Position numbers and translations under genes: made by a program
Shown: in pieces, positions 1 to 15,600 of the stretch
Layout: every line of letters begins with the position of its first letter
Position numbering within the stretch: the first letter of the stretch is position 1
NCBI GenBank assembly: GCA_003518245.1
Contig: DOZA01000012.1
Span: 1-15,600, forward strand
Direction of reading: 5' to 3'
Length of the DNA: 15,600 bases
Origin: Bacteroidales bacterium
GTDB lineage: Bacteria; Bacteroidota; Bacteroidia; Bacteroidales; VadinHA17
Notes under the pieces: generated by a model
Database searches by the model: none
The model's input: the letters and a program-made list of their open reading frames with translations, nothing else
What the model was told of the DNA's origin: nothing

Positions 1-3000
1 TAAGGAACATAACCGATAAAGATATAAAACCCGAACTTGAGAATATAGATGGTATTGCAGGTGTTGAGGTGTTTGGAGGAAGGGAAAGCTCTATTGAAAT
101 ACTGCTTGATGAAGAAGCATGCAAAGCCAACGGCATAACAATGAACAGGGTAAGGTCACTTATTGCATCAAACAGTAATGATAAAGTTTTTGCCGGACGT
201 GTATATGAAAGTGATAAGAGGTTTTTTGTTAATATATCATCTGAATATTCTGAGGTATCTGATATAGGGAATATCATAGTGAATCCCCAGGGCCCTGTTC
301 TTTTAAAAGATATTGCGCAAATATTTTTTGGAGTAAAAGAAGAAGAATCATACAGCCGTGTCAATGGTCTGGATGCTATTACTATAAACCTTATATATGA
401 TAACCAGGCTAATATTATTGATCTTTCACACCATACTGTCGATGTTATAAAAGACCTTAATAATAAGCTGGCCTCATCAGGTGTAGAAGTATTAGTGCAG
501 AATAATAATGCTGAGGTGATGGAGAAAAATATTGACCAGATCATTAACCTCGCCCTTGTTGGAGGTCTTCTTGCCGTAATTATTCTCTGGTTCTTCCTGA
601 GAAATATAAGACTGGTCTTTATAATTGCTTTTTCTATCCCGGTATCAATATTTACAGCCTTTAACTTTTTCTATGCAGCAGGAATAACAATAAACAGTTT
701 AACCCTAGTTGGTATGGCCCTTGCCATAGGTATGCTCATAGACAACTCTGTAGTTGTACTTGAAAATATATACAGGATTGCTGGCAGTGGATCAGGAACA
801 GATGAAGCGGTAAGAAAAGGAACCAGGGAAGTATATAGGTCGGTTATAGCAGCCACCCTGACAACAATCATTGTGTTCCTTCCTTTTGTTTTTTCAGACA
901 ACTTCCTTGTTAAAATAATAGGTAAGAATATAGGTGTTTCTATAATATCAACATTATTGGTCTCACTGGCTGTGGCCTTACTTCTTATACCCATGGCTAC
1001 CCATTTCCTCCTTGCCCGGTCAAAGAAAAGTAAATCACAGATATTCAAAAGAATGTCTATACATGACAGGCTGATACAATATTACCTTCTTATTCTAAAA
1101 GCCAGCATACGTCGGCCGGCGTCTACCATCATCGGCACTCTGGTCGTATTCTTTGCTGCTCTACTTATAAGCCTGGGCCTGAGTATCAATCAACTGGAGG
1201 AAATAGAAACAGACAGCTTCCCGGTAAGTATTATAATGCCTGCAGGGTCAACGCTTGAAAAAACTGATGCCCTTGTCACTGAGCTGGAAAAAAGACTTGA
1301 AAACCTTCCTGAAAAAGGTGATATTATAACAAAAATTGAGGAAGAGCGGGCGTCTGTAACTGTTCAGCTAGTGGAGGACTGGGACAGGGCAAGCAATCGT
1401 AATCTGGCCGAGATAAAGAATGATATATACGAGAGGGTACATGATTTTGAAGGAGCAGAAATCACCATGGACGAGATTTCTTCCGGCGGAGGAATGGGAG
1501 GTTATGGAGGATCAGGAGGCGTGAACCCCGGGGAGGGATTTACACGTATGCTGGGTATAGGGACACAATCAGAAAGTATCATAATCAAAGGACAGGACTT
1601 CGGTAAGATGAGAGACCTGTCCGATGATATAGAATATTACCTTGATGACCTTAGCACTATCAGATCGGTAAATGCTAATATACAGGATAATACACCTGAA
1701 GTACAGCTCAATTTTAACACAGAACTAATGAGCAGGTATGATATCAGCCTCAATAATGTTGCCCAGGAACTGGCTTCATTTCAGCCAGAATATTCATCAG
1801 GGGTTAAGTTCAAACATGATAATGAAGAGTATGATATCATAATTAAATACGATACCCAGGAAGAAGAGGAAGAAGAATATAAAAATGTTGAGGACCTTAA
1901 ACACTTACAGATATCCGGTGCCGGAGGCAATATAGTAGAGATGGAAGAGATAGCAGGCATAGTTTTTTCCTATGGCATGGGTAATATACACCGTGAGAAC
2001 CAGGAAAAGAGTATTACTGTAACTTACAGTTTTACCGATGAGATCAATGCTTCAAAAGCATTGATTGAGGGAGCAAGGGAAGAAATAGATGGACTTATAG
2101 CAAGTATGAGCATTCCATCTGGCATTGCTATCGAAGTAATACATGAAGAAGATGAGATGAAAGACTTCTATTACCTGATCGGAATTGCTTTTCTTTTGAT
2201 ATTTATGATCCTTGCTGCCGTATTCGAATCATTGTCCACTCCAATAGTACTGATGTTTTCAATACCACTGGCTGCACTGGGCTCCCTGCTTACTCTTATT
2301 CTTACAGGCAACTCATTGCTTAATGCAAATACTCTCACCGGTTTTCTTATACTCCTCGGTGTTGTTGTAAACAACGGCATTATACTGATTGATTACTCAA
2401 ATATCCTCAGGAAAAGAGGATACCGCCGTACACGTGCACTGATGACGGCCGGGCTGGCTCGCGTGCGGCCAATATTGATTACCGCCATAACAACTATTGT
2501 AGCTCTCATGCCACTGGCTATGGGAAAAGCAGAATACGCTTCAACGATCGGGGCTTCTTTTGCTATAACCGTTATAGGGGGACTTGCACTCAGTACTGCT
2601 CTTACACTTGTCTTTATCCCGACATTCTACACGGGGCTTGAAAACTCAATATCATGGATCAGATCACAGGACTGGAAAATAAAACTGGTCATGCTGGTTG
2701 TTTTCGTTTTCATTATAACGATGATCTATCTTAATATCGAAAAGTTCCTCTGGAAATTAATTACTACCATACTGGCAATAATACTTGTACCTGCAGTAAC
2801 CTGGTTTGTCAAAACCAGCCTCCGGAAAGCTCGTGAAACAGTTATTGCTGAAGATGAACCTGTAAATATTGTTATCAGGAGCCTGGTTAAGATATATGAA
2901 CGTGATCCCAGGATGGTAAGAGAATGGAAAGCAGGTAAAAAGATAAGACGCAGGCTGGGGCTGGAAAAGGATCCTTATTCGGTCAGAGACCTCAAGCAGT

Positions 3001-4295
3001 TTATATGGCAAGTGCCACTGCTGGGATTCCTGTTGTATTTTACCTTTATATACCTGGAAAAAGATTTCTGGATTTTCTTCTTCAGCGTGGTGAGCTGGTT
3101 CTTGATCATTACACTGTGGAACCCGGTATATTCAATACTAAGAAAAAAGCATAAGATACCATCCCTGCTGACCCGATTACTTAATATTATTGCAGTATGG
3201 CTTATTCCTCTTGCTAATCTTATCATTTTCCAGCTTAAATGGGATAATATTGCAGCAGTAATAGTAATCGGCCTTTTATGGTACCTGGGACTGATGATAT
3301 GGTCAACAGGAAAACAGCTAAGTAAAAAAAGTACTGATATATACAGGCTTAAAGGTAAGTTCAGGAATCTCAGGAAAACATACTATAAAATAGTGCTGTC
3401 TACACCCCTGATAGGCAAGGTGCGTAAACCCTTCAAGGCTCTGGGAGGAGTGTCACTTGAGATCGAAAGTGGAATGTTTGGTCTCCTGGGTCCTAATGGT
3501 GCCGGTAAAACAACACTCATGCGGATAATCTGCGGAATACTGGATCAGAGTTATGGTAAGATATGGATAAATGGACTTGATGTGGCTGAAAAGCGCGAAG
3601 AATTACAGGGCCTTATTGGCTACCTGCCCCAGGAATTCGGCACATATGAAAATATGACCGCATGGGAATTCTTGCAGCACCAGGCTATACTGAAAAATAT
3701 TACCGATATAAAAATAAGGAATGAACGGGTTAATTATGTTCTTAATGCTGTACATATGCATGAACGTAAAGATGAGAAAATAGGATCATATTCGGGAGGT
3801 ATGAAACAGAGAATCGGTATAGCACAGATACTGCTCCATCTGCCACGTATAATGGTGGTTGACGAGCCTACAGCAGGCCTTGACCCCCGCGAAAGGATAA
3901 GGTTCAGAAACCTGCTTGTTGAACTGAGCAGGAAAAGAATAGTTATATTCTCAACTCATATTATAGAAGATATCTCAAGCTCGTGTAATAAAGTGGCTGT
4001 TCTTGACAGGGGATACCTTAAATACCTCGGTCATCCCGGCCAGATGACAAAACAGGCAGAAGGAAAAGTATGGCAGTTCAATATTCCTGTCCCGGAGTTC
4101 AGGAAATTTGCTTCTGAAAACATGGTTGTACACCATATGTCAGAAAAAGGAAGCGTTAGGGTGAGGTGTATTTCTGAAAATAAACCACATGAAAATGCCA
4201 AACAGGTAAACCCAAACCTTGAAGATTCATACCTGTGGTTATTAAGAAAAAATAAAAATGAAGTCACCAATGAGCAGGAAAAAAAAGATAAGTAA
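1..4295 (+). CDS. RND efflux pump fused to ABC ATPase domain (5' partial)
   Basis: Inner-membrane transporter joining an RND (AcrB/HAE-like) pump to an ABC nucleotide-binding domain in one frame. The frame is open from base 3, so the GTG at 69 is not the true start; by comparison with AcrB about 160 residues are missing. Numbering from 69 as residue 1: end of the first porter region; TM2-6 at about 155-310 with GMLIDNSVVVLENIYR (D225, matching AcrB D407; the next residue is N226); a periplasmic half with a Gly-rich loop (473-486) and a run of Glu near 600; TM8-12 ending near 857, with GVVVNNGII (N768 where AcrB has K940). An added linker follows with about six hydrophobic helices (about 873-913, 979-1017, 1037-1080) and a basic soluble segment. 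The ABC domain has Walker A GPNGAGKT (1141-1148), signature SGGMKQR (1242), Walker B ending DE (1265-1266) and H-loop His1297. The RND and ABC assignments are firm; the substrate is unknown. Confidence 0.93.
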   Translation, partial: RNITDKDIKPELENIDGIAGVEVFGGRESSIEILLDEEACKANGITMNRVRSLIASNSNDKVFAGRVYESDKRFFVNISSEYSEVSDIGNIIVNPQGPVLLKDIAQIFFGVKEEESYSRVNGLDAITINLIYDNQANIIDLSHHTVDVIKDLNNKLASSGVEVLVQNNNAEVMEKNIDQIINLALVGGLLAVIILWFFLRNIRLVFIIAFSIPVSIFTAFNFFYAAGITINSLTLVGMALAIGMLIDNSVVVLENIYRIAGSGSGTDEAVRKGTREVYRSVIAATLTTIIVFLPFVFSDNFLVKIIGKNIGVSIISTLLVSLAVALLLIPMATHFLLARSKKSKSQIFKRMSIHDRLIQYYLLILKASIRRPASTIIGTLVVFFAALLISLGLSINQLEEIETDSFPVSIIMPAGSTLEKTDALVTELEKRLENLPEKGDIITKIEEERASVTVQLVEDWDRASNRNLAEIKNDIYERVHDFEGAEITMDEISSGGGMGGYGGSGGVNPGEGFTRMLGIGTQSESIIIKGQDFGKMRDLSDDIEYYLDDLSTIRSVNANIQDNTPEVQLNFNTELMSRYDISLNNVAQELASFQPEYSSGVKFKHDNEEYDIIIKYDTQEEEEEEYKNVEDLKHLQISGAGGNIVEMEEIAGIVFSYGMGNIHRENQEKSITVTYSFTDEINASKALIEGAREEIDGLIASMSIPSGIAIEVIHEEDEMKDFYYLIGIAFLLIFMILAAVFESLSTPIVLMFSIPLAALGSLLTLILTGNSLLNANTLTGFLILLGVVVNNGIILIDYSNILRKRGYRRTRALMTAGLARVRPILITAITTIVALMPLAMGKAEYASTIGASFAITVIGGLALSTALTLVFIPTFYTGLENSISWIRSQDWKIKLVMLVVFVFIITMIYLNIEKFLWKLITTILAIILVPAVTWFVKTSLRKARETVIAEDEPVNIVIRSLVKIYERDPRMVREWKAGKKIRRRLGLEKDPYSVRDLKQFIWQVPLLGFLLYFTFIYLEKDFWIFFFSVVSWFLIITLWNPVYSILRKKHKIPSLLTRLLNIIAVWLIPLANLIIFQLKWDNIAAVIVIGLLWYLGLMIWSTGKQLSKKSTDIYRLKGKFRNLRKTYYKIVLSTPLIGKVRKPFKALGGVSLEIESGMFGLLGPNGAGKTTLMRIICGILDQSYGKIWINGLDVAEKREELQGLIGYLPQEFGTYENMTAWEFLQHQAILKNITDIKIRNERVNYVLNAVHMHERKDEKIGSYSGGMKQRIGIAQILLHLPRIMVVDEPTAGLDPRERIRFRNLLVELSRKRIVIFSTHIIEDISSSCNKVAVLDRGYLKYLGHPGQMTKQAEGKVWQFNIPVPEFRKFASENMVVHHMSEKGSVRVRCISENKPHENAKQVNPNLEDSYLWLLRKNKNEVTNEQEKKDK

Positions 4296-4989
4296 CCTGG
4301 CAGATATCGCTTTTAAAATGATCAGGTATAACCTTAAGATTATTTTTGCCAACAGGTTTATCTGGTTCCTTATCGGAGCTATTGCATTTTATACCGGTCT
4401 GACACTTATATATGTCTTTACAGAAGATGTATCCCGGGTAGAAGACCTTTACGGAATATTTGTTTTCTGCGGTATACTGCTGGTTTTTTACCCTACTGTT
4501 TTTGGTATCCAGAACGACCAGGATGCAAAGACAATAGAAATATTGTTCGGAATACCTAATTACAGGTATAAGGTATGGCTGGTACGTATTGGACTGATAT
4601 ATGTTATCACTTTTGCTATTCTGCTGGGCTTTTCTTCACTATCATCATTCCTTGTAATACCCATGCCGGTATTTGCCGTAACATATCATGTTCTATTCCC
4701 GGTATTTTTTCTCGGTATTATGTCATTCATGGTATCAACATTTGTGAAAAATGGAAATGGGACAGCAGTGCTGATGATAATATTCGGCCTGATATTCCTG
4801 ATTTTGCAGGACACACTGGAAAAAAGTAAATGGAATGTATTCCTGAATCCATTCTCTACCCCTGATGATATAAGTGAAACAGCCTGGTCGAATATTGTTC
4901 AGGATAACAGGATTATACTTTTTACTTCCATAATCATTTTCCTGTTGGCAGGACTGTATAACCTCCAGAGAAGGGAGAAATTTATCTGA
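4258..4989 (+). CDS. ABC-2 type transporter permease
   Basis: Small polytopic membrane protein of 243 residues with about six hydrophobic helices (near 34-54, 65-84, 107-127, 143-162, 168-184 and 217-235) and a basic N-terminus, the layout of ABC-2 permeases that pair with a separate ATPase. The segment ETIEIL-like KTIEILFGIPNYRYKVWLVR (91-110) after TM2 resembles the cytoplasmic coupling region of this family. The start at 4258 overlaps the end of the RND-ABC gene by 38 nt; ATGs at 4270 and 4318 are alternatives, and no clear Shine-Dalgarno sequence decides between them. The overlap implies translational coupling, so it is most likely the membrane partner of the ABC domain encoded just upstream. 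The substrate cannot be told from sequence. No peptidase or extracellular domain is attached. Confidence 0.88.
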   Translation: MKSPMSRKKKISNLADIAFKMIRYNLKIIFANRFIWFLIGAIAFYTGLTLIYVFTEDVSRVEDLYGIFVFCGILLVFYPTVFGIQNDQDAKTIEILFGIPNYRYKVWLVRIGLIYVITFAILLGFSSLSSFLVIPMPVFAVTYHVLFPVFFLGIMSFMVSTFVKNGNGTAVLMIIFGLIFLILQDTLEKSKWNVFLNPFSTPDDISETAWSNIVQDNRIILFTSIIIFLLAGLYNLQRREKFI

Positions 4990-5287: not shown

Positions 5288-5300
5288 ATTGCTAATTGCT

Positions 5301-5750
5301 ATGATTAACAAAGAGATAGTAAAAGAACTGGTAAAGAACTTTATTGCTGGCAGGGATATCTTCCTTGTCGACACAAAAGTATCGACCACTAACAGGATTA
5401 CAATCCTGGTAAATAAGCCATCGGGCATTACTATTGATGAATGTGTTATGATTAGCAGGCATATTGAATCAAATCTCGACAGGGAAAAGGAAGATTACGA
5501 ACTAAATGTTTCATCACCCGGACTGGATATGCCTTTCAGGGTCAGGGAGCAATATGAGATGAGTATTGGAAGACCTGTTGAAGTGATTGATATTGAAGGC
5601 AAAAAGACAAGGGGAATACTTAAAAACGTTCAAGGGGAAGGATTTGAGATTGAATCGCAGAAAGTAAATGGAAAGAAAAAAGAGTCTAGGGAGATATCAT
5701 TAAATTTTGATGAAGTAAAATCAGTAAAAGAAATAATAAAGTTCAAATAA
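5301..5750 (+). CDS. rimP: Ribosome maturation factor RimP
   Basis: Cytoplasmic assembly factor that binds the 30S precursor and helps its late maturation. The 149-residue product has the family's two-domain layout: an alpha/beta N-terminal domain with the hallmark YELNVSSPGLDMPFR (residues 66-80) at its end, then a small Sm-like beta domain (about 85-149) carrying VEVIDIEGKKTRGIL. An upstream in-frame TTG at 5289 is possible, but the ATG at 5301, giving MINKEIV, fits family length and is preferred. It is the first gene of rimP-nusA-infB, 18 bp ahead of nusA, and is preceded by a Bacteroidota promoter and a leader hairpin. The gene order is the near-universal one, supporting the identification. 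Confidence 0.95.
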   Translation: MINKEIVKELVKNFIAGRDIFLVDTKVSTTNRITILVNKPSGITIDECVMISRHIESNLDREKEDYELNVSSPGLDMPFRVREQYEMSIGRPVEVIDIEGKKTRGILKNVQGEGFEIESQKVNGKKKESREISLNFDEVKSVKEIIKFK

Positions 5751-5768
5751 AAAAGATTTTGAAGTGAG

Positions 5769-7007
5769 ATGGAAAATGTAAACTTAATCGATACCTTCTC
5801 AGAATTTAAAGAACTGAAGAACATTGACAGGGCTACAATGATGAGTGTCCTGGAAGATGTTTTCAGGAGTCTGCTTGCCCGTAAGTACGGGTCAGATGAG
5901 AATTTTGATATTATAGTCAACATTGACAAGGGTGATTTTGAGATATGGAGAAACAGGGAGGTCGTAGAAGATTCGGACCTTGAAGATCCGAATACACAAA
6001 TATCATTATTGGATGCAAAGAAAATTGATGAGGATTACGAGGTGGGTGAAGAGGTATCGGATGAGGTTAAACTGCACGACTTTGGCAGAAGGGCTATACT
6101 GGCTCTCAGGCAGCACCTGACAACACGTATACTTGACCTGGAGAAGAACAATATCTATATGAAATATAAAGATCGCATAGGTGATATTGTGACCGGTGAA
6201 GTATACCAGGTATGGAAACGTGAAATACTTATTCTTGATGATGACGGTAACGAACTGATACTTCCAAAATCTGAACAAATTCCGTCCGATCATTTCCGTA
6301 AAGGAGATACAATCAGGGCGGTTGTGATAAAAGTGGAAATGAAAAACAATACCCCTTTTATTATTCTTTCACGTACTTCACCTGTTTTCCTTGAACGTCT
6401 GTTTGAACTTGAAGTACCTGAGATATTCGATGGTCTGATTACTATCAAGAAAATAGTCAGGGTTCCCGGTGAAAGGGCAAAAGTAGCCGTTGAATCATAC
6501 GATGAAAGGATTGACCCGGTAGGAGCATGTGTGGGAATGAAAGGATCAAGAATACATGGTATTGTACGTGAATTAAGAAACGAGAATATAGATGTAATCA
6601 ATTTTACATCAAACCTCCAATTGTATATTTCCAGGGCACTCAGTCCGGCAAAAATAAGCTCACTGAAGCTTTTTGAAGATGATAAGAGAGTTGAAATATA
6701 TCTTAAACCAAGCGAGGTGTCCCTGGCAATTGGTAAAGGTGGTCTGAATATTAAGCTTGCCAGCCAGCTCACCGGGTTTGAAATAGACGTTTACAGGGAA
6801 CCTGATAGTGAAGATGATGAAGATGTGAACCTTGAAGAATTTGTTGATGAGATAGACGGATGGATAATTGATGAACTGAAAGCTATAGGTTGTGATACAG
6901 CTAAATCGGTTTTGAGATTATCTCTTGATGACCTGGTTAAAAGAACAGACCTGGAAGAAGAAACAATCTCAGAAGTAATAAATATTCTAAAAGCTGAATT
7001 TGAATAA
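5769..7007 (+). CDS. nusA: Transcription termination/antitermination factor NusA
   Basis: RNA polymerase-associated elongation factor that modulates pausing, intrinsic termination and antitermination. Domains in order in the 412-residue product: N-terminal polymerase-binding domain (about 1-130); S1 domain beginning at GDIVTGEVYQVW (residue 138); KH1 with GACVGMKGSRIHGIVREL (252 onward); KH2 with the GKGG loop LAIGKGGLNIK (322-325 at its core); an acidic stretch near 350-362; and a short helical C-terminal segment (364-412) with helix-hairpin-helix character. It lacks the second long acidic-repeat extension of the E. coli protein, as is usual outside Gammaproteobacteria. The ATG at 5769 gives the expected N-terminus; a GAAGTGAG stretch just upstream may aid initiation. 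It lies between rimP and infB, 25 bp before the latter. Confidence 0.97.
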   Translation: MENVNLIDTFSEFKELKNIDRATMMSVLEDVFRSLLARKYGSDENFDIIVNIDKGDFEIWRNREVVEDSDLEDPNTQISLLDAKKIDEDYEVGEEVSDEVKLHDFGRRAILALRQHLTTRILDLEKNNIYMKYKDRIGDIVTGEVYQVWKREILILDDDGNELILPKSEQIPSDHFRKGDTIRAVVIKVEMKNNTPFIILSRTSPVFLERLFELEVPEIFDGLITIKKIVRVPGERAKVAVESYDERIDPVGACVGMKGSRIHGIVRELRNENIDVINFTSNLQLYISRALSPAKISSLKLFEDDKRVEIYLKPSEVSLAIGKGGLNIKLASQLTGFEIDVYREPDSEDDEDVNLEEFVDEIDGWIIDELKAIGCDTAKSVLRLSLDDLVKRTDLEEETISEVINILKAEFE

Positions 7008-7032
7008 CTTTTTCTGTAAATAGAGGATTTTT

Positions 7033-9864
7033 ATGGCTGAAGGACAAAAAGCAACGAGATTAAGTAAAGCCGCACGTGAATTTAACGTGGGAATATCCAC
7101 CATTGTTGAATTCCTGCATAAAAAAGGATTTGACATAAATGCAAATCCTAATACTAAAATACCTGCAGAAGCTTATGACCTTCTTCTTAAGGAATACAGT
7201 TCAGATATAAGTGTTAAGAAAGAATCTGAAAAATTAACCCTTAAAGAACTTAGCAGAAGGAAAGAAACACTCTCGATTGACCAGCCTGAAGACACCGTGG
7301 CAGAGGAAATTAAAAACCCGGAGCCAGAAGAAGAAAAACCTGAAGCCCCCATAGACACCCCACCAGAAAAGAAAGAAGAGAAGAAAGTAACGGAAGAAAA
7401 AGAAGAGAAAAAACCTGTTGCTGTAGATGAAAAGGATGAGGTTAAAACTAAAACCACCGAGAAGGAAAAGACAAAGCTGGGTGTAAATGTAGTAGGTAAA
7501 ATAGACCTCGTTAAAGAAAAAGCAACCAGGAAGGAACCCATTAAAGCGGAAAAGGGAAAGACTGAAGTTCGGGCTGGGGAAGAAAAGCCGGCAAACAAGA
7601 AAACAAGCACAAAGAAAACAACAGATAAGAAAAAAGAGGAAGAAGAAAAAGAAAAGAAAGTTATTCCTGAAAAAGAAGAAAAGATCGTTGCTGAGGCAGT
7701 GAAGGAGGAAAAAAGTGAAGAAGATAAATTTATTAAAACAAAAATACAGAAACTTTCAGGGCCTACAGTGGTAGGTAAGATTGACCTGCCTGTACAGGAG
7801 AAAAAGAAAACACAAAAGGCCAGGAAAGTTAATATCAATGATGAACACTCATCAAAAAAGAAAAGAAAGAGAATAAAGAAAGAAAAAGAAAAGGTAAGCC
7901 TCAAAGCATCGGGAGAAGATAAAAAAGATAAACGGAAAAGAAGAACACAGGTAAGACATGAAGTTAATGAAGAAGATGTGCAGAAGCAGGTAAAAGAAAC
8001 ATTGGCACGACTTACCTCAAAAGGAAAATCCAAGGGAGCAAAGCATAGAAGAGAAAAGAGGGATGCCATCAGCCAGAGACAGAAAGAGGAAATAGAAAAG
8101 CAGGAACAGGAAAAGAAAATACTTAAAGTAACAGAGTTTGTTTCGGTGAATGAACTGGCTACAATGATGGATATACCTGTTACAGACATAATAGGAACAT
8201 ATATGAACCTTGGACTGTTTGTCTCAATAAACCAGAGGCTGGATGCTGAAACCATGTCACTTGTTGCTGAAGAATTTGGCTATGAGGTTAATTTTATAAG
8301 TGCCGAATTGCTTGATGCCGTCAGGGAAGAAGAAGATAAACCTGAAGATCAGGAATCTCGCCCTCCTATTGTAACAGTTATGGGCCATGTTGACCATGGT
8401 AAGACAAAACTGCTTGACCATATACGTAATACTAACGTTATTGCCGGCGAGGCCGGGGGTATAACACAACATATTGGTGCATACAGCGTGTCACTCGATG
8501 GCAGGAAACAGATAACATTCCTGGATACACCGGGTCACGAAGCATTTACTGCTATGAGAGCAAGAGGAGCCCAGATAACTGATATAGCTATTATTGTTGT
8601 TGCAGCTGATGATGGTGTTATGCCCCAGACAGTAGAAGCAATAAATCATGCTGCTGCTGCAGGTGTGCCAATAATATTTGCCATAAACAAAATTGATAAG
8701 CCCACGGCTAACCCGGAAAAAATTAAGGAAGAACTGGCAAATATGAATTACCTGGTTGAAGACTGGGGAGGAAAATACCAGTCACAGGAGATCTCGGCCA
8801 AGGAAGGGATAAACATTGACGAACTGCTTGAGAAAGTATTGCTCGAAGCGGAAATGCTGGAACTGAAAGCTAACCCTAATAAGAAAGCTACAGGAACAAT
8901 AATCGAGTCATCCCTTGATAAAGGTCGCGGGTATATTGCTACTGTTCTTGTAAAATCTGGTACACTGAAAATAGGCGATATAGTCCTGGCCGGGTCATAT
9001 TACGGTCACATAAAGGCTATGTATAACGAAAGAGGAAATAAGATTGATGAGGCAAGCCCTGCAAGCCCTGTTCTTATTCTTGGCCTCGATGGAGCCCCCC
9101 AGGCAGGTGATAAATTCAATGTGATGGAAACAGACAGGGAAGCTAAAGAAATAGCCAATAAAAGAACACAGTTGCAGAGAGAACAGGGTATGCGTACACA
9201 GAAACATATCACACTCGATGAGATTGGTCGCCGTATAGCTATAGGTAACTTCCAGGAACTGAATATTATTGTAAAAGGTGATGTGGACGGATCTGTTGAA
9301 GCACTGAGCGATTCATTGATAAAACTTTCAACTGAAGAAATCCAGGTGAATATACAGCATAAAGCCGTTGGTCAAATATCCGAATCAGATATTCTCCTGG
9401 CAGCAGCATCAAATGCAATTATTATTGGTTTCCAGGTCAGACCATCCTTGAGTGCAAGAAAACTGGCAGAGAAAGAAGAAATAGATATACGCCTCTATTC
9501 AATTATCTATGATGCCATAAACGAAATAAAATCTGCTATGGAAGGTATGCTCTCACCCGAGATGAGGGAAGAAATAACCTGTACCGTGGAAGTGAGAGAA
9601 ACATTCAAGATTACCAAAGTGGGAACCATAGCTGGCTGCTATGTGAGAGAAGGAAAGATAACACGCAATACAAAAGTAAGGATCATCAGGGATGGTATTG
9701 TAATTTATACCGGTGAGCTGGGATCACTTAAGAGATTCAAAGATGACGTTAAGGAAGTAAGCTCCGGCTATGAATGCGGACTTAATATCCAGAATTTCAA
9801 TGATATAAAAGTAGGCGATTTTGTTGAAGGATACCAGGAAATAGAAGTAAAGAAGACTCTCTAG
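7033..9864 (+). CDS. infB: Translation initiation factor IF-2
   Basis: GTPase that places initiator fMet-tRNA on the 30S subunit and promotes 50S joining. The 943-residue product has an IF2-N-like helical domain (about 1-60), a long Lys/Glu-rich disordered stretch (about 66-350), a second IF2-N domain (366-418), and then the G domain: G1 GHVDHGKT (451-458), the switch [11 protein letters not shown] region, G3 DTPGH (498), G4 NKID (552-555), G5 SAKEG (588). Domains II, III and IV follow, IV ending in the fMet-tRNA-binding beta barrel. The disordered stretch contains VVGKIDL twice (153-159 and 246-252). The ATG at 7033 has AGAGG 7 nt upstream, a fair Shine-Dalgarno sequence for this group. It is the last gene of the cluster and converges on gcvH with 11 bp between stop codons. 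Confidence 0.98.
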
Positions 9865-9875
9865 ATAAAACCTTA

Positions 9876-10253
9876 TCAGCCTATCAATTCTTTATACTCC
9901 TCAGGTGATAATAACTCTTCAATCTCAGCAGGGTCAGTAACCTTTACTTTTACCATCCAGCCTTTACCATAAGGGTCTTTATTTACCACTTCGGGACTGT
10001 CTTCCAGATCAGGGTTGATCTCAAGCACTTCACCACCCACAGGCATAAACAGATCAGACACTGTTTTAACGGCTTCTATAGTGCCAAATACTTCTTCTTT
10101 ATCAAGTGCTTCTCCTTCTGTTTCAATCTCCACGAAAACTACGTCGCCGAGCTCACCCTGTGCAAAATCAGTAATTCCAACAACTGCATGATCACCCTCT
10201 ACACGCAACCATTCATGGTCTTTTGTGTACTTTAAATTTTCAGGTATATTCAT
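9876..10253 (-). CDS. gcvH: Glycine cleavage system H protein
   Basis: Lipoyl carrier protein that shuttles the aminomethyl group between the P, T and L proteins of the glycine cleavage system in the cytoplasm. The product is 125 residues, the standard length, and begins [20 protein letters not shown] as typical H proteins do. The lipoylation site is Lys63 in [13 protein letters not shown], followed by the [18 protein letters not shown] segment and GKGWMVKVK near the C-terminus, all characteristic. No P, T or L protein gene is in the window, so it is not part of a gcv operon here. It lies 86 bp after sprA on the same strand, with its own promoter-like sequence in that gap, and may also be reached by read-through from sprA. 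Confidence 0.97.
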
Positions 10254-10339: not shown

Positions 10340-13300
10340 TTATTGTATCAAGGTAAACTTAAGACTGAACCCAAAATTTGTATTTGATGTGGTATAGGTA
10401 GTTGCCACGAAAGGATCGTTAAGATTATGGTCAAAAAACAATTGCAGGTTGAACCTGTCGCTTAATACATAATCTGTTGTTGTCCTGATTGAAAATATCC
10501 TTTGCCCTGCCACAGGCTGGTTAACATCTTCTATAAGTTTACGGGAAATAGTCTTATTATCCCTTATTGAGAAGTCCAACCTTATATTAAGGTCGCTGGT
10601 AAGCGGACGGCGACGACCACCTGTTTTGAGTATTATCTGTACATCATCAAAACGGTACCCGGCACCTATAATGAATTCATTATTTCGCACATCTGCAACC
10701 TGGTTATTGGCAAGGTTAAGGCTTACAGTACGCGACTTTTTCCATTCGACGCGGGTGGTCAGGCTGTTCTTCCAGTTAAGGTCAATATTTAAAAGTGGAC
10801 TGAACTGTTCATTTATAGTAACCACATTAAGCTCATACTCAGGGATGAAATTAAGGTTCAGATCCCTAATCCTGCTTATACCATCCTCCTCTTCATCATA
10901 ATACAGGTTAGTGGTATATGAGCCTATAGTATATGTACTTCTGTACTGATGTGCAATATTTACTGAACGAAATATTTTTTGCACAAGCTCAAACTTCGAC
11001 AAACCGTCAAAGTTTATTTTCCAGTTTGGCATCATTGATAATACACCAGGGAACATATCAAGGCTGACCTTCTCAGGATCTCTCTTCGAATATGCAGCCA
11101 GGAAAGCAGGTATAAGGACCTCTCTTGATGACAGCCCATAACCATTCTTATATGGACCTTCAATAGGATCACCTGTTTCAGGGTCAATATCCGGCTGGTA
11201 GGAAGGATCAATTTCCTGCCTTCCCTCGGCCTTTCTCCTGGAAATAATTATTGTATTATCCTTAAATTTCTCAAATGTTTCTGAAACATACAGGTTGTCC
11301 TCGCTTATCTTCTCAAAAGCTGTCCCCCATGAAAATATTGTTATAGAGAAATTACCTGACGTAACCCTGTTCCTCAGGCTATCGGGGAAATTACCATTAC
11401 GGTCGGCACGGTAGTAGGCTGATTCTGATTGTGCAAACCTCCTGTCTGCTGTAAGGTCAATGCGCATACCGGGAAAGGGCTCCACAGTACTTCGTATACT
11501 AAATGTTTCATTCCTGTTTGTTACAGCAGCAGTATTTAGTAAAGTATCAGTTGTAATCCAATTATTACCCAGGGCTTTCTCAAAAAAATCAGGATCACTA
11601 TATCCTGCAATGAATCCCCATCCGGGAGCAAACACATCATTGGTCTTTGTCATACCAAGGTATTCTGACTCAGGTGTAAACCCTGGCAGTATCTGTCCCT
11701 GGTCTATTCTATATGTAGCAGAAATATTACGTACACCCATCATTGCCCTCACAAGATATTCCCCTGCCACAATAAGAGGGTTTCTCTTTTTCTCTATCTT
11801 GCCTTCAATTTCTATTCTTCCATTATCAATATCTTCTGATGAGGTAAAAACGACCTTGCTTTCTGATTCAATTTCCACCTTTCCTTCCACCTGCGTACCA
11901 TCTTCTTTAAACACTCTTACTTTCACATCGTCAGTTCTGAGGTTATGGTATATATTCTTTCCCCTTCCAGCAGTAAAATCCACCCTCTCCCGTTTATAGG
12001 TCACTGTGCGATACTCCTTTTGCATCCTGCTTGTAGCACCCGGTCGTGTATTTCTTTCAATGTTCTTGAGGAACTTGGATTTATTATACAGGTTAGTCAT
12101 ATTTGCCTGTGCCGACATCTGTCCAGAGCTCGAATTTTTAATTGTGTTTCCAAGGTTAATATCCAGGCTGTCAGGATACAGTGGACCGGCCAGCCAGTCA
12201 TAGCTTGCCCTGTATCGCAGGTTACCATTTAACCAGCTTAGAAGGGGCAGCTTATTAACAGGTATATTATAATTGATATTAATAATATGATTGTAATGAG
12301 TATTCCTTCCAAAATTGCGGAGGTTAATAAGGACAGAATCTTTCCATGCTTCATACTGATCACGGTATCTTTCCCTGTCAACCCCGCCCATTGGTTCATC
12401 AATTCTTGCAATATTCGAAGCTGTAAAATCTATCTTAAGTTGCTTGGTCAGGTCATACTTAATATCGTAGAATCTCATCCATTCAAAATCTTTTCTGAAA
12501 GTGGGTTTTATCTTTATAAAATCATTATTGATATTTCTTGTTCTTACTTCACTATAGTACCTGCTCAGGTCAGTTCTGATACCCACATGCCTTGGCATCA
12601 GGTAGAAATTTAAATCTCTAATAAGCCTGAAAATATTTCCTCTGAAAAGGTTAACATTCTTGAATGGTGTAATATTTTTTGGATTATTATCAAAAATATA
12701 ATTTATACCACCCCTGTAATTTTTCTCCAGTTTTATCTCTGTATTTATATTGCTTCTGTATATCTCATTAAATGTATAATTAACAGAGAAATTTGAGATA
12801 TCCCACGGGTATGATTTTTCCTTCTTTTTATTTATTCCGGCATTACTGACAGTAATAGTTTTTCTCTGTGTATAGTCCTCAGCAATAGTCTTCAGAGAGT
12901 CTCTTTGTTCCGGGTTCAGGTTCTCAAGTGCATCCTTGAATGGTATATCAGGATCAAGAGGATTATATTGCGGCTGAATATGGCTTTCGGAATATCCCAG
13001 GTAAACCGGTAATCTCACCCCTGCTTTCTCAGGGAAGAAACTTCCCAGTTCGAGGTTGGAAGACGCATCATATTTAGCTACCTGTTCCTTGCTCCTTTCA
13101 TTAACCTTCATATCCAGGCTACCAAACCCTGGTGTACTTGTCTGGCCAACCAGGTCAATTGTACCCAGGTTTGCCAGCCTGGTCTGCAGCCGTGCATTGG
13201 CAGCCCATCCACCTTCTTCATTGAAATCGCTTAGTCTTAGCTCATTAACCCATACTTCACTTGATTTTGGCAGCCCATCATCATCACCTGTATTTCTTGT

Positions 13301-15600
13301 TTTTATAGGATTACGTACTCCAACCATTATTACCCTTACATTGCTGAGGTTGGGGTTGCCCGATACGCTGATCCTTGCATTTTCGTGAGGATAAATATAA
13401 ATATCTGTTCTTGAAAGTGATGAGCCCTGGCGGTTCATCTCTGCGTTCCTGGCCTGCTTAGCCTCCTGGAATAATGACAGATCGATATTGAAGCTATTCT
13501 CTTTAGGCCATACTATAGCCCTTTCTTCATCATCGTCCTTATTATAATAACCCGGGGCTGTAAGTTTAAGGGGTAGCTCGTATTCATAGAAATTTCCTTT
13601 ATAATCTGATCCTATTCTTATGAATACCGTTAACTCATTATCCATCAGCGGTTCACCAATTATCTCTTCTCCATGAACCTCCATCCTTAGCTTCCTGTAC
13701 TGGCGTATATCAAGGTTGACATTTTTAAAAGCTGCCCTTGCATCGCCATCTTCAAGGTTATGTACACTTAATACCATTGACTGCTCATTAAGCTGTCTCA
13801 GTTGGGGATTAGAAGGATCAATTACTCTATCAAATCCTGGCGGAAGGACATAATTTACCGGTTCTTTACCGGCATTCTCCTCTATACTTACCGAGCTTAT
13901 TTCAAAGCTGCCATCTTCCGGTTCAGGTACACTTACTCTTTCTCCTCCTTCGAGGAAGGAAATATTATATTTGCGCCATTCAGCCCTCACCAGGTCAAGC
14001 GTTGCAAGCCGCAGTATTAATTCCTGGTCGAATCCCCTCATGAACATACGCATAAACCTTATTGACTTAAAATCCTGGATATTTCCGATAACACGAGAAT
14101 AGTCAGTTACAGGTATTTTAAACTGGTACCATTTGACAGTTGACTGATCACCATTGGCAAATGTTGCAGTATAATCCCTCTCATCAACAATATAGTTCTT
14201 ACCTACCTCCATATCTTCAGGTCTCATGCTTACCCTGTACTGGTAATAACTTTCCGTTTCGCTGAGAGTATTGTCCCTGTTTATATCTTCCATATCAGGC
14301 ATTGTTGATCCACTGGTAGGGTAATTTTCTTCACTCATCTCCGAGGTCGGCGAATTTCCATCCATACCATTATATTTCTTGTATCTTTCCAGTATTCCCA
14401 GCTGCCGGCCATCATAATCGGAGCCCCTGAAGTAATGAAAATCATCATTGGATGGATCGTCCTGTATCTCATTAAGTACATCCTGGTTAACAATACTGGA
14501 AACCTCCTCCAGATAGGAGCTAAAAAAAGAATGCTCATCCTCATTGGATAAACCGTCCAGGCCCACATCCTGATATTTCCTTGATTCAGGCACATTATCA
14601 AAAGCATGTACCACAGCCTGTACAGTCGGAACCCTGCCCCATGCAGTTGTATCCACATTTACTTCTTCCGGGCTAACAGGTAAACCGTTCTCAAAAGACT
14701 TTCTTGAATCACGAAGGATATCTTCGGATATATTACCAAGATTAATATACAGGTCTCCCCCGCTACGCATTGGATCTTCGTTAAAGGGATCCATCAGCCA
14801 GAATTTTATATACTGTATATTTGCTGTTTCGAAATCGCTGGTCAGGATCTCCCTCATTATACCACCCCATCTTTTCTGGGGATCATTAAGTAATCCCTCC
14901 TGGTTTATCCCTGATGAATATGCTGTGGGTGTTGTTTCATAGTTATAAGGCCCTTTTTCTTCAGGATAGAAAGCAAGGTTTAGAACAGCTATATTTGTAG
15001 GTATACCTGAAGGGCTTTCTTTAAAAGGGAACAGCTCGTTCTCATATATCTCCCTAACAAAATGACTTGATTGTAGATCAGGGTTGTTTTTTATATGATC
15101 GGGGGTTGTCAGTCCATTTCGCAGGAACAGCGGATCTATAACATACCAGTTTAGTTTAGACCGGTTAAAACCACTGGTCCAGTCATTATTAAGCCTTGCC
15201 TCAGGGAAGAGATTATCCTGACCCTGTGGTACACTTGAAAGCACCCATGCATTATAGGTTTTCATATCAAGAGGTATCTCACTGGCCTCAAAATCATCAA
15301 TATACGAATTACCGGCAGAGCTTATTGCCTTTGAATGACCCGGTATAAGGTGAGCAAACTCACCAAAAAAGGTCACTGATGAGGGGTCTTTTGTTTCGAT
15401 AAAAGGCAGTGCATCTACCATTTTTGTAAGAAATTGCGATTCAGAGCGGTATGATGTATTTAAACCCAGGATGGTGTTGGATATAGGCTCCTCGCCAAAA
15501 TTCACCTTCTGTGTATAAGGCCTTTCATTAAGGTGAAGGATGGTTCCCCCAATATTAAAATCATTGGATATTTTATAATCAAGATGTGTACCTACCAGTG
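10340..15600 (-). CDS. sprA: SprA/Sov, type IX secretion outer-membrane translocon (5' partial)
   Basis: Giant outer-membrane beta-barrel protein that forms the translocon of the type IX secretion system (SprA in Flavobacterium gliding, Sov in Porphyromonas). The frame stays open from the TAA at 10340-10342 to the window edge, so the GTG at 15505 is internal; at least 1750 residues are visible, and known SprA proteins reach about 2400. Family hallmarks: NFGEEPISNTILGLNTSYRS and YIDDFEASEIP (codons near 15281-15310) in the N-terminal part, SGNPNLSNVRVIMVGVRNP and SSEVWVNELRLSDFNEEGGW (near 13200-13390), then GFGS and a long series of alternating polar/aromatic strands ending in FSLKFTLIQ, a typical last barrel strand. 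A soluble, charged segment (about 11780-12010) interrupts the barrel strands. The signal peptide and promoter lie beyond the right edge. It is followed by gcvH. Confidence 0.95.
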   Translation of the reverse strand, partial: LVGTHLDYKISNDFNIGGTILHLNERPYTQKVNFGEEPISNTILGLNTSYRSESQFLTKMVDALPFIETKDPSSVTFFGEFAHLIPGHSKAISSAGNSYIDDFEASEIPLDMKTYNAWVLSSVPQGQDNLFPEARLNNDWTSGFNRSKLNWYVIDPLFLRNGLTTPDHIKNNPDLQSSHFVREIYENELFPFKESPSGIPTNIAVLNLAFYPEEKGPYNYETTPTAYSSGINQEGLLNDPQKRWGGIMREILTSDFETANIQYIKFWLMDPFNEDPMRSGGDLYINLGNISEDILRDSRKSFENGLPVSPEEVNVDTTAWGRVPTVQAVVHAFDNVPESRKYQDVGLDGLSNEDEHSFFSSYLEEVSSIVNQDVLNEIQDDPSNDDFHYFRGSDYDGRQLGILERYKKYNGMDGNSPTSEMSEENYPTSGSTMPDMEDINRDNTLSETESYYQYRVSMRPEDMEVGKNYIVDERDYTATFANGDQSTVKWYQFKIPVTDYSRVIGNIQDFKSIRFMRMFMRGFDQELILRLATLDLVRAEWRKYNISFLEGGERVSVPEPEDGSFEISSVSIEENAGKEPVNYVLPPGFDRVIDPSNPQLRQLNEQSMVLSVHNLEDGDARAAFKNVNLDIRQYRKLRMEVHGEEIIGEPLMDNELTVFIRIGSDYKGNFYEYELPLKLTAPGYYNKDDDEERAIVWPKENSFNIDLSLFQEAKQARNAEMNRQGSSLSRTDIYIYPHENARISVSGNPNLSNVRVIMVGVRNPIKTRNTGDDDGLPKSSEVWVNELRLSDFNEEGGWAANARLQTRLANLGTIDLVGQTSTPGFGSLDMKVNERSKEQVAKYDASSNLELGSFFPEKAGVRLPVYLGYSESHIQPQYNPLDPDIPFKDALENLNPEQRDSLKTIAEDYTQRKTITVSNAGINKKKEKSYPWDISNFSVNYTFNEIYRSNINTEIKLEKNYRGGINYIFDNNPKNITPFKNVNLFRGNIFRLIRDLNFYLMPRHVGIRTDLSRYYSEVRTRNINNDFIKIKPTFRKDFEWMRFYDIKYDLTKQLKIDFTASNIARIDEPMGGVDRERYRDQYEAWKDSVLINLRNFGRNTHYNHIININYNIPVNKLPLLSWLNGNLRYRASYDWLAGPLYPDSLDINLGNTIKNSSSGQMSAQANMTNLYNKSKFLKNIERNTRPGATSRMQKEYRTVTYKRERVDFTAGRGKNIYHNLRTDDVKVRVFKEDGTQVEGKVEIESESKVVFTSSEDIDNGRIEIEGKIEKKRNPLIVAGEYLVRAMMGVRNISATYRIDQGQILPGFTPESEYLGMTKTNDVFAPGWGFIAGYSDPDFFEKALGNNWITTDTLLNTAAVTNRNETFSIRSTVEPFPGMRIDLTADRRFAQSESAYYRADRNGNFPDSLRNRVTSGNFSITIFSWGTAFEKISEDNLYVSETFEKFKDNTIIISRRKAEGRQEIDPSYQPDIDPETGDPIEGPYKNGYGLSSREVLIPAFLAAYSKRDPEKVSLDMFPGVLSMMPNWKINFDGLSKFELVQKIFRSVNIAHQYRSTYTIGSYTTNLYYDEEEDGISRIRDLNLNFIPEYELNVVTINEQFSPLLNIDLNWKNSLTTRVEWKKSRTVSLNLANNQVADVRNNEFIIGAGYRFDDVQIILKTGGRRRPLTSDLNIRLDFSIRDNKTISRKLIEDVNQPVAGQRIFSIRTTTDYVLSDRFNLQLFFDHNLNDPFVATTYTTSNTNFGFSLKFTLIQ

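Follow-up and report, generated by a model that had tools for sequence, protein, structure and literature searches.

ABC, RND and MFS proteins are described as the energized inner-membrane components of tripartite systems in excerpts of a 2021 review (PMC8277102). Several known exporters share features with the locus analyzed here. MacAB-TolC is, like it, an ATP-driven exporter associated with a membrane-fusion protein (MFP) and TolC, but MacB, a type VII ABC protein, has no RND part. MdtABC and MuxABC resemble it in encoding two different RND subunits and an MFP in one operon. To our knowledge, these pumps have neither an ABC domain nor ABC permeases, and DrrABC/MmpL7 lacks TolC and MFP components. 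The MdtB2C heterotrimer is given as the active form in excerpts of PMC12802153 and PMC4338810. Export of PDIM in mycobacteria needs the RND protein MmpL7 and the type V ABC exporter DrrABC, thus joining RND and ABC-2 proteins in one lipid export path as our locus may do; unlike our locus, the components described in the excerpts of PMC11539658 and PMC8427324 are separate polypeptides, with one kind of nucleotide-binding domain (NBD) and an MmpL7 without any proton relay. The ABCA lipid exporters (ABCA1, ABCA3 and ABCA4) are the solved structures closest in sequence to both NBDs of the locus, but they are full-length eukaryotic transporters with contiguous NBDs and no RND part. The reading that we favor, with moderate confidence, is that the locus encodes a composite ABC-RND envelope exporter in which the fused gene would supply an RND2-NBD2 subunit.

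The window (the whole stretch of 15,600 nucleotides analyzed, from a Bacteroidales bacterium) begins within this gene, and all the features given here are on its + strand. According to the ORF list, frame 3-4295 is open for 1,430 codons. A Pfam search of the window protein placed ACR_tran at residues 1-877 (E = 3.6e-146; profile positions 154-1018 of 1021) and ABC_tran at residues 1149-1291 (E = 3.1e-28), confirming the single-frame joining of an RND pump and an ABC ATPase noticed in a sequence-only reading of the window. The RND2 part (3-2636, window residues 1-878) is thus covered by ACR_tran along its length, as expected of a member of the (HAE-1-like) RND superfamily. The 5' end of the frame is open because the contig starts there. 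Another contig of the same assembly (C79) terminates with an exact 245-base overlap to the window and holds codons 1-232 of the fused gene, of which 81 are common to the window copy and the first 151, encoding the N-terminal ~151 residues of RND2, lie on C79; the full length of ~1,581 amino acids is arithmetic from this overlap, the two contigs having been kept separate.

The contig end at the start of the window, and the separation of the RND and linker-NBD parts in one genome (G005), where they lie at two places each flanking an N-run, are what an assembly or frameshift artefact would have in its favor. We give this explanation practically no credence, since the fused frame recurs in relatives and dN/dS is low across the RND-NBD junction (0.07 to 0.17 in five comparisons, with dS near saturation). 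Chains with both domains comprised 47 distinct fused proteins of 1,480 to 1,650 amino acids, and many database relatives have ~1,575. The stop or frameshift between the two parts that might have undone the fusion was not seen in the relative ORFs having the NBD plus RND or linker sequence: the RND part was in frame in 59 of 62, and the other three begin at a contig end or N-run. Among 60 genomes searched, 23 (our own included) had matches to the fused gene, and a single match ran from RND into NBD in 20 of them, 18 near full length; the RND side was clipped by contig ends in G046 and G057, and the matches in G017 and G049 end at a contig end ahead of the NBD. One internal stop was reported in eight matches, six of which (L034, L036, L041, L043, L044 and L048) carried the whole fused frame in an ORF listing that left out the other two, L015 and L019. 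Carriers belong to Bacteroidota, Krumholzibacteria, Calditrichota, Zixibacteria, Gemmatimonadota, Acidobacteriota and others; one cultured host is Carboxylicivirga sp. M1479. The RND-ABC architecture is not rare in databases, where some relatives bear the JGI name "multidrug efflux pump subunit AcrB/ABC-type multidrug transport system ATPase subunit." No plasmid record spanned 80% of the fused-gene query; 11 matched at E = 1e-60, and the 10 listed spanned 48 to 50% of the query, in the NBD part.

The fused gene is part of a seven-gene module with the conserved order NBD1 (an ABC ATPase), BIGP, TolC-like channel, MFP, RND1, RND2-NBD2 fusion and TMD2. In loci with room for the gene in question, the unfused RND1 adjoined the fusion in 57 of 58, the MFP was present in 54 of 55, the channel (OMF) in 49 of 51 and TMD2, which follows the fusion, in 56 of 57, three assemblies reached by two routes being counted twice. 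Adjacent genes overlapped or were at most 60 bases apart in 14/18 to 49/57 cases, depending on the pair; four loci (L083, L084, L092 and L107) were not simply adjacent. RND1 and RND2 form two separate tree groups (support of 99 for each), so that, as in MdtABC, two distinct RND genes and an MFP gene share one operon. Such conservation of gene order does not prove that the products form a single complex. The sequence-only reading had counted three NBDs per RND trimer, which assumes a homotrimer of fused chains; with RND1 next to the fusion, a trimer could instead mix both RND types and contain one or two fused chains, and since the module offers a partner for the NBD as well as for the RND, a count of three NBDs per trimer is not required. 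Of its three options, the operon favors pairing of the NBD with a separate ABC unit: genes for a standalone ATPase (NBD1), BIGP and TMD2 accompany the fusion. Flanking genes, compared by eye in ORF lists (13 loci upstream and 22 downstream), did not point to a substrate. This comparison, with Pfam searches of 10 upstream proteins and not systematic, gave no recurring neighbor outside the near relatives L115, L118 and L129.

The ATPase motifs are all present in the fused chain. Positions 3429-4292 hold NBD2 from beta2 onward, its C-terminal extension included, as delimited by motifs and by an hhalign match to nearly the whole profile of NBD1 (E = 6e-102, 42% identity, NBD1 columns 15-301), with Walker A at 3489-3515, Q-loop at 3621-3638, signature at 3786-3803, Walker B/D-loop at 3858-3887 and H-loop at 3951-3965. 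The ATP-site motifs are kept in 46 to 47 of 47 NBD2 and in 20/20 NBD1 sequences. Each NBD forms one tree group (support of 87 for NBD1 and a low 60 for NBD2), a grouping compatible with a single origin of the fusion. The fused chain matched the DrrA model TIGR01188, a further likeness to DrrABC, at E = 4.9e-49 and GldA (TIGR03522) about equally, and TIGR01188 was the best model for the NBD1 of L117.

The sequence-only reading had taken the ABC domain for a complete one and had not noticed that transmembrane helices split it; the domain is complete in its motifs, but beta1 and the A-loop are not contiguous with the rest. The stretch assigned to them by PSSM and hhalign (VNIVIRSLVKIYERD, 2862-2906, with Tyr965) lies 198 residues ahead of Walker A. 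It was the best PSSM site in 47/47 fused proteins, aligned with the NBD1 N terminus (hhalign E = 0.007), has an invariant K and Y (37/37) and follows the same pattern as the beta1/A-loop of ABCA1 (VSIQNLVKVYRDG). The A-loop Tyr usually precedes Walker A by ~23 residues, contiguous with beta2, whereas the distance is 181 to 211 residues in 47/47 fused proteins and 230 in L136. Judged by these alignments, NBD2 is split, its beta1 and A-loop being parted from the remainder by about four predicted transmembrane helices (3006-3302, from family-average hydropathy and alignment A4, two of the peaks being merged or overlapping). Ahead of it, the linker starts with two further predicted helices (TM13-14, 2637-2822; hydropathy averaged over the family is highest at window residues 893-909 and 920-936). 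We know of no ABC domain in which membrane helices intervene at the A-loop, and none of the paper titles listed by an open-access search describes one.

This linker is long, membrane embedded by prediction and conserved across several phyla. It had no Pfam match of note (the commonest, DUF4131, was found in 6/37 members with a best E of 0.0046), nor did the PDB yield a match (best E = 2). Its hits fall in frames of 504 to 1,640 amino acids. An assignment as an ABC-2 membrane domain was not supported, the helices falling into groups of roughly two and four on either side of a cytosolic loop bearing beta1. Neither did it appear to be a standalone protein: of 17 matches of 145 to 460 amino acids, six were read, and these were one truncated fusion and five apparent frameshift or gene-call fragments.

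Two permeases accompany the NBDs. TMD2 is a small protein with about six hydrophobic segments, encoded at 4258-4989, exactly where a permease had been proposed, in overlap with the 3' end of the fusion; ATG 4270 is also a possible start, and relatives start near there. It resembles an ABC-2 permease only weakly. Of 46 family members, at E values up to 1, 6 matched ABC2_membrane_3 (best, 8e-05), 5 matched ABC2_membrane_2 (best, 4e-04) and 9, more than for any ABC-2 model, matched Acyl_transf_3 (best, 3e-04), while the window's own TMD2 matched neither ABC-2 model at this threshold. Its similarity to BIGP was low (hhalign E = 0.0085, probability of 4.7). BIGP is a large, probable ABC-2 permease whose ectodomain (pseudo-M1 and Golvesin_C) is M1-like but degenerate; the protein is matched by ABC2_membrane_2 and by Peptidase_M1 in 7/14 sequences each at E values up to 0.1. 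By string match, the HEXXH zinc motif was absent from 22/23 BIGP sequences, some of them partial, the exception being HETKH in L045.

TMD2 lies directly downstream of the fusion, often overlapping it, and NBD1 adjoins BIGP, leaving one permease neighbor for each NBD. They could thus be two separate half-transporters, an NBD2 homodimer with a TMD2 dimer and NBD1 with BIGP; this is very improbable, since the operon repeatedly contains the two kinds of NBD together with the two permeases, BIGP being present in 24 of the 25 loci with room and missing only from L047, which starts at an N-run. In the composite exporter that we favor, and for which we infer assembly, stoichiometry, energy coupling and substrate, NBD2 and NBD1 would instead pair as the ATPases of a type V (ABC-2) exporter, a type defined by two six-helix ABC-2 membrane domains per two NBDs, here TMD2 and the BIGP N-terminal domain. 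RND1 and RND2 would form a mixed trimer, like MdtB and MdtC, with one ABC unit per RND trimer (or two fused chains at a 1:2 ratio). The ABC part would spend ATP in extracting an amphipathic, probably lipid-like or lipidated, molecule from the inner membrane, and the RND porters, the BIGP ectodomain, the MFP and the TolC-like channel would carry it through the periplasm and across the outer membrane. Being fused, and having helices pass through the NBD at its A-loop, may lock the ATPase to the RND membrane domain, and with it so locked the two cycles would, we propose, be physically coupled.

The relay residues of the RND proteins bear on how they could be energized. The canonical RND proton relay is formed by D407, D408 and K940 of AcrB. 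In RND2, the TM4 motif (GMLIDNSVVVLEN, 729-767) has an Asp at the D407 position (46/47 distinct fused proteins) and an Asn at that of D408 (46/47), and the TM10 motif (GVVVNNGIILID, 2358-2393), with NN in 47/47, has an Asn in place of K940. RND1 shows the same changes, with the first Asp in 54/54 and Asn at the places of D408 in 52/54 and of the TM10 Lys in 53/54. In our alignment MdtB, unlike RND2, has retained both Asp residues of TM4 and the TM10 Lys. The RND2 of L034 matched MdtB, ZneA, MexB and AcrB chains (phmmer). Neither the N-terminally cut window protein (411 bits versus 1,250 for RND_permease_2) nor the full-length L034 RND1 (569.5) reached the curated NCBIfam cutoff for multidrug RND pumps. 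Loss of the TM10 Lys and of the second Asp in both proteins, together with the lack of a canonical relay in MmpL7, the partner of an ABC-2 exporter (excerpts of PMC11539658 and PMC8427324), would suit an RND part converted into an ATP-powered porter driven directly by the fused NBD, with TMD2 and BIGP as accessories. We find this improbable: the first TM4 Asp is kept, ABC-2-like permease genes accompany the NBDs, and in our alignment the metal pump ZneA likewise carries Gly in place of the second Asp and lacks the TM10 Lys, albeit with an extra TM4 Asp six residues upstream.

With this Asp kept in both RND1 and RND2, the RND part may in fact run on protons alone. Together with the intact ATP motifs, such retention of each part's own catalytic residues is consistent with two tethered but independent machines in one operon, an RND tripartite pump and an ABC-2 exporter acting at different steps (flip, then efflux), the fusion giving only proximity or a fixed ratio. 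Also in line with independence, Butyricimonas has, besides its module (L152), a second BIGP and NBD1 on a 20.8-kb locus without RND matches (L107). In Flammeovirga, Balneola and others, a standalone ATPase of the same wider group lies beside a ~1,220-amino-acid protein with a Peptidase_M1 domain in both neighbors tested (L103 and L123) and ABC-2 matches in L123. These pairs differ from the module in having HEXXH (4/4 looked at), no RND matches in the fetched flanks and no fusion, and the similarity between the BIGP of L117 and L103 is weak (21%, E = 2e-06). Since a conserved membrane-embedded linker threaded through the NBD exceeds the needs of a tether, we regard independence of the two machines as unlikely, and a coupled, composite exporter remains our preferred reading.

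As anticipated in the sequence-only reading, no well-characterized pump of this architecture was found: searches of open-access literature, including the excerpts of PMC8277102 and PMC10094684, showed no description of an RND-ABC fusion pump, and the seven-gene export machine appears to be undescribed. It is possible, and we put this forward tentatively, that it belongs to a transporter class of a new kind: a single chain would link ATP hydrolysis to the work of an RND porter, a two-RND tripartite pump and an ABC-2 exporter would be united in one complex spanning the envelope, and the split NBD, with helices next to its adenine-binding A-loop, would let movements of the membrane or RND part act directly on ATP binding. 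An ABC domain interrupted at the A-loop would be a new topology for a much-studied fold. In tripartite systems, ion-driven RND and ATP-driven ABC proteins are regarded as alternative motors, and the module would join these two energy-using transporter types in one complex. In PDIM export, a relay-less RND protein depends on an ABC-2 exporter and the coupling between them is open, according to excerpts of PMC11539658 and PMC8427324. A covalent RND-ABC chain with operon partners would fix the ratio of the two and make such coupling directly testable.

The fused gene runs from position 3 to 4295 of the window (+), with 1430 codons open in one frame; the contig begins inside the gene, which leaves its 5' end open. 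Pfam placed ACR_tran, the RND permease, at residues 1-877 and ABC_tran, the ATPase, at residues 1149-1291. The genome is divided into 419 contigs (the window is C285), and the gene starts on C79, whose end carries its first 232 codons; through an exact overlap of 245 bases, 81 of these codons also lie in the window. The full protein would thus have about 1581 aa. Complete ORFs in the listed relatives have 1556-1584 aa.

Our search covered 60 genomes from the same genus, family and order as the window (its own included), and 23 had a match to the fused gene (E ≤ 1e-150). A single match crossed from RND to the nucleotide-binding domain (NBD) in 20 of these, near full length in 18 and with the RND side cut by a contig end in G046 and G057. 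The match ended at a contig end ahead of the NBD in G017 and G049. In G005, the RND part (L046, 6169-8766) and the linker-NBD part (L047, 8112-9476) were far apart and both next to N-runs, which may reflect either a genuine split of the gene or faulty scaffolding. One internal stop was reported in eight matches, which include L015 and L019, whose ORFs lie outside the listing; the six with listed ORFs were whole fused frames, so the reported stop sits in the C-terminal tail of the alignment. Among the loci L033-L130, RND and NBD occurred together in 59 ORFs, and linker and NBD without RND in 3, two starting at contig ends and the third at an N-run. The single-frame fusion proposed by the sequence-only reading is thus borne out. 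Fused proteins of 1480-1650 aa numbered 50 (47 distinct). Residues 880-1430 were matched by 4836 of the 7993 candidates scored in the protein database (E ≤ 1e-10), and most of the best 120 of these had about 1575 aa and carried both PF00873 and PF00005, the chains with both domains that the same reading had proposed to look for. The dN/dS ratio against five relatives was 0.02-0.17 wherever dS was computable, inserted helices included (Nei-Gojobori; dS near saturation, only the low level being meaningful). Among the papers listed by searches of an open-access library, with few subscription articles or bioRxiv preprints, we found no description of an RND-ABC fusion or of an NBD with such an insertion.

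About 260 aa long, the linker comprises two predicted helices, then a basic loop in the cytosol, then about four more helices ahead of "PFKAL." The loop holds "IxIRNLVKIYD," whose K and Y are invariant in 37/37. A 12-column profile of beta1 and the A-loop, from 27 standalone ATPase windows, was scanned over the 296 residues preceding Walker A, and its best site was the linker loop in 47/47 fused proteins, where Walker A lies 181-211 residues further on (about 23 in standalone ATPases). This distance was 188-197 residues in a divergent subfamily and 230 in L136. The lowest best-site scores were 6.6 (L095) and 10.6 (L092), and the top second-best score was 10.2 (L080, own best 16.3); shuffles of each region reached the site's score in a mean of 0.4 in 500 (maximum 10, L095). 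In an independent comparison by hhalign, columns 15-301 of NBD1, the standalone ATPase of the module, matched the fused part from "PFKAL" onward (E = 6e-102), and columns 2-21 had their sole match in linker columns 75-94 (E = 0.007; printed probability low, 5.5), the two combined covering nearly the whole of NBD1 once. ABCA1 has "VSIQNLVKVYRDG" at the NBD position equivalent to the displaced beta1/A-loop. These alignments suggest that NBD2, the fused NBD, is interrupted by predicted membrane helices between the A-loop and beta2. The linker beta1 could instead be the remnant of a second, degenerate NBD, which is less likely because no beta1 of comparable score was found nearer Walker A.

A translated search with the operon members gave the gene order NBD1 - BIGP (a large ABC-2 permease with an M1-like ectodomain) - OMF (a TolC-like channel) - MFP (a membrane-fusion protein) - RND1 (an unfused RND permease) - RND2~NBD2 (the fusion) - TMD2 (a small permease). 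In loci with room, RND1 was present in 57/58, MFP in 54/55, OMF in 49/51, BIGP in 24/25 and TMD2 in 56/57 (three assemblies reached by two routes were counted twice); the misses were in L046 and L047, both from G005 and beside N-runs, and in L095, which lacks OMF. Median intergenic gaps were -4 to 33 bases, by pair, leaving out L083 (one BIGP on the opposite strand), L084, L092 and L107. In the window's genome, C240 holds NBD1 and the start of BIGP, and C79 the end of BIGP, OMF (N-interrupted), MFP and RND1; from the relatives, we infer that C240 and C79 adjoin in module order. In the divergent subfamily the order is BIGP - MFP - RND1 - fusion - TMD2, no OMF lying between the first two (L154, L155), and TMD2 had no match in its member L156. 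Separately, Butyricimonas carries a second BIGP followed by NBD1, in reversed order (L107, 6704-10861), separate from its RND module (L152). One contig of a Gemmatimonadaceae MAG, reached twice (L084, 5144-11422; L158, 9701-15979, -), has a 2092-aa ORF in which RND2-NBD2 is preceded by a weakly RND1-like stretch, a duplication or chimera.

Downstream of the module in the window lies rimP - nusA - infB (5289-9864, +), which, by ORF starts and lengths, also follows it in close relatives (L034, L036 and L038) and not in L040 and L041; only rimP is visible in L035. IF-2 (7033-9864, +) has a Lys/Glu-rich region of about 360 residues ahead of IF2_N. On the other strand, gcvH (9876-10253, -) adjoins the gene of a giant SprA-like protein (10340-15598, -; 5' open; SprA_N, E = 1.8e-184), a type 9 secretion/gliding component.

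Distribution was assessed with a linker profile from the alignment A4, the open frames around matches being described by their length. Matches were found in 40/295 genomes of the order (own included; frames of 504-1640 aa), 6/395 of a phylum sample (own included; 1430-1640 aa) and 31/64 of the phylum of the L098 genome, recorded as Gemmatimonadetes (528-2326 aa). Among the named records that carry the fusion are Bacteroidales, Prolixibacteraceae, Proteiniphilum, Krumholzibacteriia, Calditrichaceae, Aminicenantes, Zixibacteria, Gemmatimonadetes and Acidobacteria. The linker was present in 8 of the 11 genomes to which named loci belong, including the isolates Butyricimonas sp. Marseille-P3923, Sanguibacteroides sp. 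GM7 and Carboxylicivirga sp. M1479. It was not found in Flammeovirga sp. EKP202, in Gracilimonas mengyeensis or in the Odoribacteraceae MAG with L102, a locus cut within RND2 by the end of its contig.

ATP-site catalytic residues were intact in 20/20 NBD1 and 46-47/47 NBD2, the exceptions being one row X-masked at Walker B and one that lacks the H-loop His. In a tree of 62 NBDs, with several outsiders on very long branches, NBD1 and NBD2 each formed one group (support 87 and 60), making a single fusion event the simplest history. RND1 and RND2 also formed separate groups (support 99 and 99; one outsider only). At E up to 0.1, BIGP matched Golvesin_C in 14/14, ABC2_membrane_2 in 7/14 and, weakly, Peptidase_M1 in 7/14; HEXXH was not found in 22/23 BIGP sequences, some of them partial. 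TMD2 is weakly ABC-2. A protein of about 1220 aa adjoins a standalone ATPase from the wider group in Flammeovirga, Balneola and others (L103, 10821-14453; L113, 10888-14592; L123, 10901-14572; L124, 10910-14569). HEXXH was present in 4/4 of these and Peptidase_M1 in both tested (L103, L123), L123 also having ABC-2 matches. This protein is possibly a membrane peptidase-transporter hybrid; with its ATPase it looks like a simpler ancestral pair, its direct similarity to BIGP being weak.

An ABC dimer requires two NBDs and two membrane domains, and NBD1, NBD2, BIGP and TMD2, all encoded in the operon, could provide them. An RND trimer requires three protomers, and here it could be mixed from RND1 and RND2. 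MdtB2C is a known mixed trimer, according to PMC12802153 and PMC4338810. Two RND1 and one RND2 would bring one NBD2, hence one ABC unit, per trimer, which would remove the puzzle of three NBDs raised earlier for a homotrimer; a 1:2 ratio of RND1 to RND2 would give two units.

RND1 and RND2 keep the first Asp of TM4, but almost all members have Asn both at the second Asp position and in place of the TM10 Lys, so protons may or may not still be used. The metal pump ZneA likewise lacks the second Asp and the Lys in the alignment, though its TM4 contains a further Asp six residues upstream. MmpL7, the RND protein of PDIM export, has no relay and is dependent on DrrABC, an ABC-2 exporter, as described in PMC11539658 and PMC8427324. 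Given the replaced relay residues and this precedent, we favor the module being a composite exporter that is fuelled by ATP, uses protons only optionally and carries an amphipathic substrate. By the likeness of its NBDs to ABCA/Drr and by analogy with PDIM, this substrate may be "lipid-like."
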